Source of the DNA: a virus
DNA: 20,990 nt
Direction: 5' to 3' (one strand)
IMG/VR virus record: IMGVR_UViG_3300021511_000030
Coordinates: 1 to 20,990 of that record
Shown here piece by piece: positions 251-7,088 of the stretch. Under the pieces are notes generated by a model, which ran no database searches, was not told the origin of the DNA, and was given only the letters and a program-made list of their open reading frames with translations. Made by a program: the position numbers and the translations under genes. Each line of letters begins with the position of its first letter. Position 1 is the stretch's first letter.

Positions 251-2665
251 TCAATTGGGTGCGAGGTGCTTTGCACGCTCTTCGGTATCGTTAGCAAGCG
301 CGGCTTCGATCTGCTCTCGATTCGCGTAACCGTTTTGCTCAGCCCATGCGATCAAGTGATCAAGGGCTATCACCCGATAGTTCGGGCGACCGTAACCGGG
401 AATCGATAGACGTATACGCTCGTCGGTAGCAAGCGCGGCGATTGCGCTGCTAATGCGGCCCGTGCTCGGGCAATGCTCGTTGCCCACGTAAACCGACCAG
501 CAACGCACAAGCGCTTGTGTGTTCACGCACAAGCGTTTTTGGTGCACACGGATCCAATACTGCCCGCTGGCGTTCGTATCGATTCGATCGGGCTCGATGA
601 GATAGCCGACGCAGAATTGCAGCACAGCCGATCGAATGCCACTCGACGAGATAAGCCGACTGTGCAACTCGGCGTCGTCACCGTGCACGATAAACCGGCC
701 GTTGGGTTTCCAAACGAAGTTATCTCGGAGCCACAAGGCATGCTCGGCAATCTTGTTTCCGTCGACCCAATCGCTTGCGTCGATCTCTTCGAGCATTTCG
801 AACGCTTCGACTTGGCAAGGGACGTGAAGGTAACGATCGACGATCGCGCCTATGTCGTGGTTTGAAAGGTTTTCGGTCGTGGCAAGGATCTCTTCGTTGT
901 TTGCGCTGATCACGAGACGCACGGCACCAAGCATGTCGGCGTTATTCAGAAACTTGCGGCGAAGCGGTCGGCGTCGGGCTTGGATGTAGTGACGCAACTC
1001 GGCGTTTAGCACTCGGCCGCGATAGTCGGTCGGCAACCGCTCGTCGGCGAACACGAGCGGGCAACGGAGTTGCGCATCGTTCCACGTCGTACCAAGCACG
1101 TCTTCGAGCGGCGTCGGGTAACCGAGCGGCGTCCAGAGGCGGCTTAGGCCTTCGGGTAAAAGTGTCTTGCCCGTGTGCCGATGGCCCGTGAGAAAAAGCG
1201 CCGTGCACGGTATGTCGAGGCGCGTCACGTTTGCAATCCACGCTAGGAGCAGATCGATTCGCTCGGGTCCTGCAAGCGCTTCGAGCCACGCCGCGATCTC
1301 GGCATGGTATCTCGGCTTGATCGGTCGCAAGGGGCACGGCGCTTCGACGAGTGTCCGGCTTTCTTCGTCGAAGTAGGCTCGTTGTGCGGATAAGGAAACG
1401 GCAACGTCGTTAGCTACGAAGCCATACTCTTGCACGAGCCGCGCGAGATCCTTTGGCTTGCGCACGCCGCTTGCTGTAATCGTGAATAGCTCGACGTTGG
1501 CGGTTGCCGCGGGCGCGAGATCTCGAAGCGTCGCGCTTAACGCTTCGTCTTGCACATAGGGGCCGTGGTATTCGTCGCCGACCAACGTGTAATAAGATTT
1601 GCCCTTTTGCACGAGCCAACGCGGTTTATCCGGCAAGGCTTCAATCTCTTCATCCGTATACGGATAATCTCGATTACTCCTGAAAGCGTCGCGGATCCGT
1701 TGGGCCATCGCGTCACGGTGCGCTTTCTCGCGCTTGTCTTGCTCGGCACGGATCGCGATCTGTGCTCGGGCGATCTTATACGCGACGTCTTCGACGGTTG
1801 GGCAGTCTTCGCCCATGGCTTCGAGGCTCGTTGCGAAGTGCGCCGCGATGCTCTCGGCGTCGCCGTCGAGAAAGCGCTCGGCCAAGGCTAGGGACAAGCG
1901 ATAGATCGTCACGTCGCGCACGCCGGGATCGGCGAAGGGCTCGCCTGCAACGACACGTTTTAGGATCTCGCCGCGCTCTTGCGCTTGCTCGTCGCGCTTC
2001 CGACACAGCGCCTTTGAGAAACGGTCTAGCGCGGCCCGTGAAACGCTTTCGGGGGGCGTGGTAGTTGTCAGGTCGTCCGGCGGTGTCGACGCCTTAGGTG
2101 GCGTTCTAGGCGGGTTGCCGAGCAAGGCGTCGACGTCGACGGGTTCGCCTTCGATTACGTCGCTTGCGGCGGCGTCGCGGTCGGCGGGCGTGTCGGGAGC
2201 GAAAGCCCCGAAGTAAAGCCGAGCGGGATCCTTGCATTGCGGATCGCTGTGCCCGCCAAGCGCGTCGTTTACCGCTTGCCATACTTCGGGCCAGTCTTCG
2301 GGCGCGACTTCGCGATCAAGCGGTACGACGAGCCGCACGCTTGCGGGCTTGATCGCGTGGCTCCAGGTCGTGTGCAAGAGCATCGCCCAACCGCGCCGGG
2401 TGACTTCGGCGACGACGGCTTCGATCACGTCTTCGAGCACACCGTCGAAATCTCCTACCCAAAGGCTTAGCGCTTCGACGGCGGCGTTACCTCGTGTCGC
2501 GTCTTTGGGATAGGCGGCAGGTGAGAAAGCGTCGCAATCGAGTTTGCTGTCGAGCGGGCGGAATTCGTGCGGCAAGAGCGCGTCGACGAATTCTTGCCAG
2601 GTGTAGGCTACGGGTTTGGGTGCGTTGTCGCGGGCGCCAGCAAAGACGGAGATCCGATGTTTCAC
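251..2665 (-). CDS. Primase-helicase: AEP-like primase domain plus SF3/DUF5906-like helicase
   Basis: This 804-residue protein very likely primes and unwinds phage DNA. The N-terminal 1-165 resembles archaeo-eukaryotic-type primases: GDFDG (D72, D74) fits the first metal-binding motif, WSH at 101-103 and RLVVPLDR at 111-118 the later motifs, followed by DPQCKDPARLYF. A Pro/Thr-rich linker (about 181-208) joins it to a helical region. The C-terminal half carries a P-loop GHRHTGKT (494-501), a Walker B-like PLVFADE (536-542) and a sensor-like VISANNEE (585-592), as in virulence-associated E/DUF5906-type primase-helicases. The start codon is GTG and its GTGA overlaps the stop of the XRE gene by four bases, which fixes the start and implies translational coupling. 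The family assignment is from motifs only; no alignment was run. Confidence 0.85.
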   Translation of the reverse strand: MKHRISVFAGARDNAPKPVAYTWQEFVDALLPHEFRPLDSKLDCDAFSPAAYPKDATRGNAAVEALSLWVGDFDGVLEDVIEAVVAEVTRRGWAMLLHTTWSHAIKPASVRLVVPLDREVAPEDWPEVWQAVNDALGGHSDPQCKDPARLYFGAFAPDTPADRDAAASDVIEGEPVDVDALLGNPPRTPPKASTPPDDLTTTTPPESVSRAALDRFSKALCRKRDEQAQERGEILKRVVAGEPFADPGVRDVTIYRLSLALAERFLDGDAESIAAHFATSLEAMGEDCPTVEDVAYKIARAQIAIRAEQDKREKAHRDAMAQRIRDAFRSNRDYPYTDEEIEALPDKPRWLVQKGKSYYTLVGDEYHGPYVQDEALSATLRDLAPAATANVELFTITASGVRKPKDLARLVQEYGFVANDVAVSLSAQRAYFDEESRTLVEAPCPLRPIKPRYHAEIAAWLEALAGPERIDLLLAWIANVTRLDIPCTALFLTGHRHTGKTLLPEGLSRLWTPLGYPTPLEDVLGTTWNDAQLRCPLVFADERLPTDYRGRVLNAELRHYIQARRRPLRRKFLNNADMLGAVRLVISANNEEILATTENLSNHDIGAIVDRYLHVPCQVEAFEMLEEIDASDWVDGNKIAEHALWLRDNFVWKPNGRFIVHGDDAELHSRLISSSGIRSAVLQFCVGYLIEPDRIDTNASGQYWIRVHQKRLCVNTQALVRCWSVYVGNEHCPSTGRISSAIAALATDERIRLSIPGYGRPNYRVIALDHLIAWAEQNGYANREQIEAALANDTEERAKHLAPN

Positions 2666-2976
2666 TTCGCGATCCCTTCGGGGTACTCACAAGCGATACA
2701 CCGATCCGTAATCGGTACGTCGTGCGGGCACGTTGCGCCGTCCCTACGCTCGAAGCGGTGTGGCAAACGGGCTTGGCCGGTGAGAAGCCAATCGGCCGAT
2801 ACCCGGTAAAGTGTCGCAAGACGAGCGAGATCCGTTGCGCACGGTTCGGTGCGCGCACGGTCCCAATTACCAATGGTGGTCGCTTGATAGCCTAACGCGC
2901 TTGCGACTTGCTCTTGCGTAAGAGAAGCCGCCGCACGGGCCGCTCGAAGCCTTTCGGCGAAACCCTGTAGAGCCAT
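2662..2976 (-). CDS. XRE-family HTH regulator with C-terminal Cys/His cluster
   Basis: The protein has 104 residues when started at the ATG 2976-2974, preceded by AAGGGA at 6-nt spacing. A longer in-frame ATG at 3045 would run through the operator repeats and is rejected. Residues 1-70 form a Cro/C1-type domain: SLTQEQVASALGYQATTIGNW (19-39) is the helix-turn-helix, followed by LARLATLYRVSADWLLTG typical of phage repressors. The tail carries C83-x-H85 and C93-x2-C96, a possible zinc-binding knuckle instead of a peptidase domain, so RecA-stimulated self-cleavage is not expected. It is the first gene of the leftward operon and lies beside an array of GTGAGACACC elements that it probably binds, repressing both divergent transcripts including its own. 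Binding is inferred from position only. Confidence 0.88.
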   Translation of the reverse strand: MALQGFAERLRAARAAASLTQEQVASALGYQATTIGNWDRARTEPCATDLARLATLYRVSADWLLTGQARLPHRFERRDGATCPHDVPITDRCIACEYPEGIAK

Positions 2977-3014
2977 GAGAGATCCCTTATACACGAATAG
3001 GGTAACTAACGGTA

Positions 3015-3057
3015 GGCGTCTCACCGTTTTAGTGAAGTGAGACACCTCTGAGACACC
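3015..3057. promoter_or_regulatory. Left operator cluster: convergent pair plus 11-bp tandem
   Basis: Three elements sit upstream of the XRE gene: GGCGTCTCAC (3015-3024), GTGAGACACC (3037-3046) and CTGAGACACC (3048-3057). The first two form a convergent pair with starts 22 bp apart, and the last two are direct repeats 11 bp apart, about one helical turn. This phasing places bound proteins on one face of the DNA. The leftward promoter should lie here, but I see no convincing -35/-10 pair on the minus strand. Confidence 0.7.
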
Positions 3058-3198
3058 TAAAACCTTTTAATCTCCCATACTTCCTTTATTGTCTCACTTG
3101 CTCAGTAGAAATAAGAGTAAAGGAATAGAATGTAGAAGTGTAGGTAAGTATCCTACTAGTTACAACACTTTCCCTTATAGTAAATACGCGCGGGAGCG
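3058..3198. other. AT-rich noncoding core, possible unwinding region
   Basis: This stretch has no credible gene. At 3121-3180 only 21 of 60 bases are G or C by my count, against about 60% in coding DNA. It is bracketed by operator-like elements, contains one degenerate copy (3088-3097), a 5-bp inverted repeat GTAGG/CCTAC (3140-3144 and 3152-3156), and a minus-strand TATAAGGG (3172-3179). Composition and flanking repeats fit a DNA unwinding element of a replication origin or simply a double promoter region. I see no canonical DnaA boxes. Confidence 0.5.
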
Positions 3199-3251
3199 GT
3201 GAGACACCGGCGGTTTTATATCTTAGGTTTCCAGGGGTTTGGCGTGCTCAG

Positions 3252-3285
3252 AGGTGTCTCACTTGCAAAAAGCAGTGAGACACCT
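3252..3285. promoter_or_regulatory. 12-bp inverted repeat, right operator pair
   Basis: AGGTGTCTCACT (3252-3263) and AGTGAGACACCT (3274-3285) are perfect inverse complements separated by 10 bases. The element starts are 22 bp apart, the same offset as the left pair at 3015/3037. No T-run follows, and the arms coincide with the repeated element, so a protein-binding site is favoured over a terminator. Confidence 0.75.
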
Positions 3286-3326
3286 GGCTGTAAGTGCTTG
3301 AGATCGAAGGGTTTTCGGTGTCTCAC

Positions 3327-3355
3327 TTGTCTAAGTACCCGTAAGGTCGTAAACT
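3327..3355 (+). promoter_or_regulatory. Candidate sigma70-type promoter for the gene at 3362
   Basis: TTGTCT (3327-3332, 4 of 6 to TTGACA) and TAAACT (3350-3355, 4 of 6 to TATAAT) are separated by exactly 17 bp. Transcription would begin about 6-7 bases on, at or next to the ATG at 3362, giving a leaderless message; no good Shine-Dalgarno is present. The operator element 3317-3326 directly abuts the -35 box, so a bound regulator would cover it. Confidence 0.5.
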
Positions 3356-3361
3356 GCCCTT

Positions 3362-3922
3362 ATGCCACGCCCTACCGAGTACGATATCGATCGACCTTGG
3401 ACGCGTCAGCCTTGCGATACCGAAGCCCGCTGGCGGTGCTTTCAAGCGTACCGCGACCAACCGCCGCCGCGAACCATGCAAGGGGCGTCGAATGCTCTCG
3501 ACGGGTACGACCTTCGAACCTTGCAGCGTTATGGGGCGGCCTGCGGTTGGTCCGATCGGTGCGCTGCTCTCGACAGGTATCTCGACGAGCAACGGGTAAG
3601 TGTGATCGTCGACGTGCTTGCCGAAGACGCTCGGGTTGTGGCGAACCGGCATGCGGCTATCGCACGAGACGCTATCACTTGCGCGCACAGTGTCGTTCAA
3701 GGTTGGCTCGTGCGGATTGCTTCGGGCGAGCACCTCGAAGGTTGGTCGCCCGGTGAGGTGCGCGGCATGTTGCGGGATATGATCGTTTTGGAGCGGTTGG
3801 TTAGGGGGGAAGCAACCGAAAGGGTTGATCACGGCTTGGCGGGTGTAGACTTGTCGAAGTTGTCGCTCGACGAGATCGAAACCATGAGGCTTTTGGAGGC
3901 GAAGGCGGGCGTGGTAGACTAG
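3362..3922 (+). CDS. HTH DNA-binding protein, candidate terminase small subunit
   Basis: This 186-residue protein is the first rightward gene. Its N-terminal third (EARWRCFQAYRDQPPPRT, then LRTLQRYGAACGWSDRCAALD) has the pattern of the HTH domain found in many phage small terminases and related DNA-binding proteins: an aromatic-rich helix, a recognition helix, and a GW-x2-R-x2-A-x-D signature. The rest is helical with no enzymatic motif and ends in LSKLSLDEIETMRLLEAKAG, also common in small terminase tails. If it is the small terminase it is unusually far (over 4 kb) from the large subunit. It could instead be an early regulator, as its position at the control region and its own terminator suggest. 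The ATG at 3362 has no clear ribosome-binding site and may be read from a leaderless mRNA. Confidence 0.75.
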   Translation: MPRPTEYDIDRPWTRQPCDTEARWRCFQAYRDQPPPRTMQGASNALDGYDLRTLQRYGAACGWSDRCAALDRYLDEQRVSVIVDVLAEDARVVANRHAAIARDAITCAHSVVQGWLVRIASGEHLEGWSPGEVRGMLRDMIVLERLVRGEATERVDHGLAGVDLSKLSLDEIETMRLLEAKAGVVD

Positions 3923-5756: not shown

Positions 5757-5943
5757 CTATTGGATCACTTCGGCTGTCTTGCTTATCAACGGCGAGTCGC
5801 GACCCTGCGTCGCGCTCGTCTTCGACGCCGACGACGGTGCTCGTCGGGCGTGGTTCTTTGACACGCCCGACGAAGCCGAAGTCGCCCGCGGGATCTTTAC
5901 CGCTGTCGGGCATCCGCCTCTCGAAGCCTACGGGGCGCACTAG
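5746..5943 (+). CDS. Small hypothetical protein
   Basis: The protein has 65 residues from a GTG at 5746, preceded by TGAGG at about 6 bases. The frame is open further upstream but that part overlaps the preceding gene and has no better start. It overlaps that gene by 11 bases, and its TAG shares a base with the next GTG. The sequence SAVLLINGESRPCVALVFDA suggests two beta strands followed by an acidic turn (DADDGARR) and a helix (DEAEVARGIF). No family is recognised. It belongs to the coupled cluster 4996-6200. Confidence 0.6.
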   Translation: MLGSYWITSAVLLINGESRPCVALVFDADDGARRAWFFDTPDEAEVARGIFTAVGHPPLEAYGAH

Positions 5944-6200
5944 TGACGGTGCCACCTTGGTGCACCGTGATTGAAGCGCTCGAAGCACGCGGCTTGCTCG
6001 AAACGGTGCGAGCAAGGGCCCTAGCGCGGCACGTAACGCTCGAAGAGGTGTGCGGGCGGGTTAGGACCCGTCAGGTAGTCCGAGCCCGCCATGATGCCTG
6101 GAAGGCCCTTTACGAGCTCGGCTTCTCGTACCCTGAGATCGGGAGGCTCTTCGACGTGGGCCATATGTCCGTCTTGCGTGGCGTGCGCGGTAGGCGCTAG
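5943..6200 (+). CDS. Stand-alone DnaA domain IV-like HTH protein
   Basis: This 85-residue protein starts at GTG 5943, one base into the preceding TAG. From about residue 31 it follows the layout of the C-terminal DNA-binding domain of the initiator DnaA: RTRQVVRARHDAWKALYEL matches the helix with the basic VxRARH stretch, and SYPEIGRLFDVGHMSVLRGV matches the S-x-x-EIG-x-x-F-(x)-H-x-x-V recognition helix pair. No AAA+ ATPase domain is present, so it cannot load helicase alone. It may bind DnaA-box-like sites in host or phage DNA, act as a competitor of DnaA, or regulate transcription. It ends head-to-tail against the lytic enzyme gene, both stops lying in one CTAG. Confidence 0.75.
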   Translation: MTVPPWCTVIEALEARGLLETVRARALARHVTLEEVCGRVRTRQVVRARHDAWKALYELGFSYPEIGRLFDVGHMSVLRGVRGRR

Positions 6201-6845: not shown

Positions 6846-7088
6846 ATGGCAAAGCGTAAAACGATCGTTGGGCCGTGCCGCGACGTGCCCTTCGGCACAA
6901 TCATTCGCGAAGCGTGGGAAGCGTCAGGCATGACGCAACGCGAATTCGCGAAACGGCTCGGCGTACAGCAACCGCGGATCGTCGAGATCTTCGCAAGTCA
7001 ATCGATAACCGAGCACCTACTCGATAGGTGCGTCGCCGCACTAGGACACGCACTCGAAGTGCGAATCGTAAGAAAGGGCAACCGATGA
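6846..7088 (+). CDS. Small HTH (XRE-like) regulator
   Basis: This 80-residue protein has an ATG preceded by AGGG at short spacing. FGTIIREAWEASGMTQREFAKRLGVQQPRIVEIFASQ (16-52) is a Cro/C1-type helix-turn-helix with the recognition helix near residues 39-48; the remainder EHLLDRCVAALGHALEVRIV resembles HigA-like antitoxin or small phage regulator tails. No toxin gene stands beside it, so a phage regulator is preferred. It faces the divergent lytic enzyme gene across 49 bp and heads a run of ATGA-coupled genes leading into the terminase, so it may govern the switch to late expression. It is a second candidate binder of the operator array at 3015-3326. Confidence 0.8.
   Translation: MAKRKTIVGPCRDVPFGTIIREAWEASGMTQREFAKRLGVQQPRIVEIFASQSITEHLLDRCVAALGHALEVRIVRKGNR

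Follow-up and report, generated by a model that had tools for sequence, protein, structure and literature searches.

What reads the short words repeated between the divergent genes of this phage, and what purpose would they serve? The window, that is, the whole 20,990-bp virus record analysed, encodes a terminase, a portal, a major head protein and a tail sheath and thus belongs to a contractile-tailed phage, which is probably temperate. No close DNA relatives of the window were found in the annotated phage collection, a tblastn search there with the primase was likewise empty, and neither Rfam families nor tRNA genes were found. The repeats occupy positions 3015-3326, within a 385-bp gap between the leftward XRE gene and the rightward small-terminase-like gene, in the following setting.

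251..2665, minus strand: primase-helicase of 804 aa, the proposed initiator (phrog_9765 DNA primase, 5.4e-15)
326..673, minus strand: C-terminal part of the primase-helicase, residues about 665-780 (AlphaFold2 pLDDT 80, pTM 0.79)
2662..2976, minus strand: XRE-family HTH protein of 104 aa (PF13560, 1.2e-10; PF01381, 5.9e-8; phrog_2328 repressor, 1.2e-14)
3362..3922, plus strand: small-terminase-like gene, the first rightward gene (phrog_6299, E=4e-4)

The XRE gene is the first of the leftward operon and starts 39 bp from the first word of the array, and the primase-helicase gene lies in the same operon, 353 bp from the array. DUF5906 matches were obtained with relatives of the primase (4.5e-8, 2.0e-7 and 1.7e-5), and the TGK of a Walker A-like motif is kept in all four primase rows compared; a PDB sequence search with the primase profile gave no match. 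Three further genes on the plus strand touch on DNA binding or modification. An 85-aa protein at 5943-6200 contains a DnaA domain-IV-like HTH (PF08299, 1.5e-6, just below the cut-off) and is possibly a phage DnaA-like accessory protein, a second HTH_3 protein of 80 aa at 6846-7088 is another candidate DNA-binding regulator, and the product of 7369-8145 matches a DNA methyltransferase (phrog_111, 1.6e-12), with a weak DnaJ-like CxxCxGxG zinc motif (PF00684, 0.031) ahead of the match.

The original prediction described an eight-copy array at this locus, and the array is indeed there: GTGAGACACC is present at 3015-3326 in five exact copies, two with one mismatch and one with two. The words are asymmetric and occur in both orientations, with TGAG as the core and AAGTGAGACACC as the full form, and when only the core is considered, the array amounts to 11 words in 2985-3361.

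3015..3024, minus strand: putative iteron GTGAGACGCC, one mismatch
3037..3046, plus strand: putative iteron, exact GTGAGACACC
3048..3057, plus strand: putative iteron CTGAGACACC, one mismatch, 11 bp after the copy at 3037
3088..3097, minus strand: putative iteron GTGAGACAAT, two mismatches, first of a doublet before the AT-rich gap
3101..3104, minus strand: extra TGAG word, 8 bp from the TGAG in 3088-3097, missed in the original prediction
3105..3194, no strand: AT-rich stretch separating the two clusters, with an A+T content of 63% against about 41% in the window
3199..3208, plus strand: putative iteron, exact GTGAGACACC
3247..3250, minus strand: extra TGAG word, 11 bp from the TGAG in 3253-3262
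3253..3262, minus strand: putative iteron, exact GTGAGACACC
3275..3284, plus strand: putative iteron, exact GTGAGACACC
3299..3302, plus strand: extra TGAG word
3317..3326, minus strand: putative iteron, exact GTGAGACACC

The cluster is clearly beyond chance. First-order Markov resamples of the 385-bp gap contain on average 0.0005 exact copies, compared to the five seen, and 0.027 copies with at most one mismatch, compared to seven, and no exact or one-mismatch copy is found elsewhere in the 20,990-bp window. Two-mismatch matches number 18 over the whole window, which was equalled in 10 of 100 shuffles and is not unusual, so the weight of the array rests on the local cluster. The AT-rich core noted earlier is equally real, as just 0.4% of the 90-bp windows equal or exceed it in A+T content, and the 3105..3194 stretch is a candidate duplex-unwinding region. 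Other signals are missing from the gap: no sigma-70-like promoter was detected, the only DnaA-box look-alikes have two mismatches, and the GC skew, suggested earlier as a check for origin activity, does not change sign at the array.

The array is conserved. Relatives of the phage were found through the head protein, and in four of them (G001, G002, G004 and G005), where the locus was placed by the XRE protein, the array lies in the same gap between the XRE and TerS-like genes in every case. What is conserved is the core TGAG(ACA), mostly at a spacing of 8 or 10 bp; each phage has 11 to 14 TGAG words, grouped in two clusters on either side of a gap of some 100 bp. Between neighbours on one strand the distance is 8 bp in 16 cases, 10 bp in six, 12 bp in three, and 7, 11 and 23 bp in two cases each, and facing pairs in the relatives are 13 to 24 bp apart. 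The 22-bp offsets (3015/3037 and 3253/3275) and the 11-bp tandem pair (3037/3048) from which helical phasing had been proposed do exist in the window, but they vary among the relatives and the phasing does not hold. Constant features are instead a doublet 8 bp apart on the XRE-gene side of the AT-rich gap, found in all five phages, and the AT-richness of the gap, which ranks in the top 0.25-0.9% of 90-bp windows in five of five phages although its sequence is poorly conserved; TA-purine triplets are enriched in it in just three of six phages. As in the window, where a motif scan confines exact and one-mismatch copies to the array, TGAGACAC occurs exclusively within the array in G004 and G005 (45 kb each), and four of its five copies do so in G002. 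In the distant relative G007, which has kept the primase (E 1.5e-234), the densest TGAG cluster is in the equivalent gap, with 10 words per 400 bp against a mean of 2.4; the full words there are different, TGAGAGG and CTGAGC, and TGAGAC is absent despite the homologous primase.

The core word is not peculiar to the present phage. A search across viral contigs for tandem plus inverted TGAGACA gave 55 array stretches, some of them near-copies of one another so that the counts are not all independent, compared to seven and 19 for the only two control words, reversed and shuffled, respectively, and 32 of the 55 have at least five sites within 400 bp, as opposed to none of the seven and six of the 19. 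The exact 32-bp inverted pair was not found in the viral contigs. Many of the large arrays adjoin the 3′ end of replicative helicase genes. In the viral contigs the neighbours are AAA_25 (L010, L040, L042, L051, L065 and L080) or VapE/DUF5906 proteins (L060, L078 and L084), and in bacterial assemblies AAA_25 (L110), DUF5906 (L121) or DUF927 with a Cch HTH (L101 and L209). Outside the window clade, which was left out of this test, the array lies at most 900 bp from AAA_25 or DUF5906 in nine of the 12 contigs with such a domain, where 0.9 would be expected (P = 5e-9, an optimistic value since the limit was chosen after the distances had been seen). The helicase gene of L084 itself terminates in a run of TGAGAC repeats, and at L008:916-1024 TGAGAC repeats lie in a coding frame and give a putative replication protein its repeated Val-Ser-Glu-Thr. 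In contigs assigned to Saccharibacter (L073, L072/L068, L186 and L200; 38.9 and 41.2 kb), a primase-like gene (phrog_35358) has a TGAGACA array at its 3′ end; these would offer a cultivated system for testing the arrays.

Uniqueness of TGAGAC as a replication-linked word was also considered and in part rejected, as the second control word likewise gave arrays beside replication genes. The control word TGACAG forms genuine arrays adjoining genes for AAA_25+PriCT_2, DUF5906/D5 and Prim-Pol, and short-word arrays next to replication genes are thus a general class, with TGAGACA as one frequent member. CTGTCA/TGACAG arrays were seen at L217, L218, L220, L228 and L231, with AAA_25, DUF5906 or Prim-Pol neighbours at the first three, and L220 shows the same order of primase, array and terminase as the window with no predicted XRE gene in between. 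Word clusters alone are, however, insufficient proof of an origin, since a genome scan also revealed many chromosomal TGAGAC clusters whose neighbours are unrelated, secretion, UbiA and PfkB genes among them. Five bacterial or archaeal loci (L117, L099, L157, L114 and L174) have 7-13 TGAGAC words, and most of those examined adjoin non-replication genes. In the literature the word was not found beside "iteron", and a broader search gave unrelated matches only.

Taken together, we consider it reasonably likely that the array at 3015-3326 is a replication origin or the initiator-binding half of one. Multiple copies of a short word lie in non-coding DNA beyond chance, an AT-rich region adjoins them, and the operon next to the array encodes a putative replication initiator. 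By analogy with known systems, the D5-type primase-helicase of the leftward operon probably binds the array. In the proposed mechanism, the asymmetric words would act as iterons in two clusters around the AT-rich stretch of about 100 bp, and the primase-helicase, made from the operon that starts beside the array, would bind the words on both sides, probably through a C-terminal winged helix; oligomers of the enzyme would subsequently melt that stretch and load. The XRE protein would probably control the promoter of the leftward operon, expected in the same gap, and some of the words may also be read by it. The C-terminal part of the primase-helicase was modelled alone because the AlphaFold model of the whole primase is poor (pLDDT 49), and in the AlphaFold2 model the C-terminal ~150 residues adopt a winged-helix topology, which makes this part a candidate iteron-binding domain. 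The fold matches of the model are weak and none is significant, with wHTH regulators like PadR among the best (E ~0.8, probability 0.69). Several observations weigh against an origin. The array is located upstream of the XRE-primase operon while most other arrays adjoin a helicase gene at its 3′ end, the GC skew lacks a sign change, and the homologous primase of G007 is not accompanied by TGAGAC. The helicases beside TGAGAC arrays, moreover, are of unrelated families whose C-termini share no homology, so a single common binding domain is hypothetical.

The original prediction left the binder as either the XRE protein or a replication initiator, of which the initiator is the better supported and the operator role the weaker. 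That the words are operators of a cI-like XRE repressor or autoregulator, with the array as a switch that closes the leftward replication operon and the rightward genes, appears somewhat unlikely. The layout would suit it: a repressor gene adjoins the array as in lambda-type arrangements and begins within 39 bp of the first word, the array separates divergent genes, the XRE gene lies between the array and the primase throughout the window clade, and the XRE gene and array co-occur in G002, G004 and G005 and, to judge from the truncated N-terminus, in G001 too. A dimeric repressor would, however, be expected to bind palindromes of fixed spacing rather than words of mixed orientation and variable spacing, the start of the recognition helix differs (YQAT, YTPQ, YHVA and YSSA) while the DNA word is constant, and no sigma-70-like promoter was detected beside the words. 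Elsewhere, TGAGAC arrays have no HTH_3 match over the cut-off within 900 bp (0/8, distances worked out by hand), no HTH_3/HTH_31 protein is present among 81 small ORFs near such arrays, and G007 has a TGAG array yet an internal stop in its XRE-like frame, where a sequencing error is possible. An origin is favoured over an XRE operator because the recognition helix varies, the words are asymmetric and uneven, and arrays elsewhere lack an XRE neighbour. The two roles can nevertheless hold at once in one array, and the XRE protein is a possible autoregulator of the leftward operon.

Some other factor serving many phages, such as the DnaA-domain-IV-like protein of 5943-6200, another phage protein or a host protein, would explain how TGAGACA comes to stand beside unrelated AAA_25, DUF5906/VapE and DUF927 helicases with dissimilar C-termini. 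Such a binder is nonetheless improbable: the 81 ORFs near arrays contain no common small protein, the G+C content of the array-bearing contigs ranges from 27 to 69%, which makes a single host factor unlikely, and the DnaA-box look-alikes in the gap are poor. Still less probable is a role in packaging, with the array as a pac site for the small terminase encoded from 3362 onwards. The array does immediately precede the TerS-like gene both in the window and in its relatives, that of L220 is likewise upstream of terminase genes, and terminases are found 1-1.7 kb from arrays in some short contigs. Terminase_6C, however, is within 900 bp of the array in none of seven contigs (distances again measured by hand), whereas helicases are that close, and near some arrays no terminase was recognised. 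Chance or low-complexity repeats, for which only the unremarkable window-wide number of two-mismatch matches could speak, are ruled out by the local excess and the conservation in four relatives.

If the array is an origin, it would place a likely origin in a phage lineage without similar DNA in the searched annotated phage collection, and helicase-adjacent arrays of TGAGACA, or of TGA-S-A-S words like it, would provide a handle for finding origins of uncultivated phages, the records compared here being metagenomic fragments. Between the helicase groups that stand beside the same word, blastp found no shared C-terminal homology. A bolder reading, which we hold to be unlikely, is that TGAGACA is a common origin code, an iteron word shared by the unrelated AAA_25, D5/DUF5906, VapE and DUF927-Cch helicases. 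Behind it could be a transferable module for reading DNA whose sequence has diverged beyond recognition, or else a factor common to these phages. The initiator of one phage might then work on the origin of another, and with one word shared by unrelated initiators, site choice and cross-use of origins would become testable.

Among known systems, the alpha protein of phage P4 is a primase-helicase whose binding sites are short repeats, present in both orientations next to AT-rich DNA. The P4 ori/crr word is of the GGTGAACA type, unlike that of the window, where a second crr-like array was not seen. Cluster A mycobacteriophages have stoperators, many asymmetric copies of one short word spread over the genome, whereas in the window clade practically all copies are gathered in one gap. 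A lambda-type operator array has palindromic half-sites at fixed spacing, in contrast to the facing spacing of 13-24 bp here. The SaPI and SCCmec origins have short iterons beside a helicase gene that are bound by the C-terminus of the helicase (PMC7581432). The SaPI origin with its Rep initiator helicase (described in PMC7581432, citing Ubeda 2007) resembles the array in having several short iterons beside an initiator helicase gene; the C-terminal domain of Rep reads the iterons, while in the window phage such a domain is a candidate only. The SaPI origin is located directly downstream of rep, whereas the window array is upstream of the XRE-primase operon; TGAGAC arrays elsewhere do follow their helicase gene, the layout expected of a SaPI/Cch2-type origin. 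In SCCmec, the element helicase Cch2 binds short AAGTG iterons beside its operon via its C-terminal domain (PMC7581432), and the placement of these iterons relative to the operon is again unlike that of the window array. Three of the window copies contain AAGTG as well (AAGTGAGACACC), probably by chance. SCCmec has only three iterons, compared to the 8-14 words of the window clade in two clusters around an AT-rich gap. The array is most likely a further case of this known kind, an iteron-type origin, and what makes it interesting is that one word recurs next to helicases of unrelated families.
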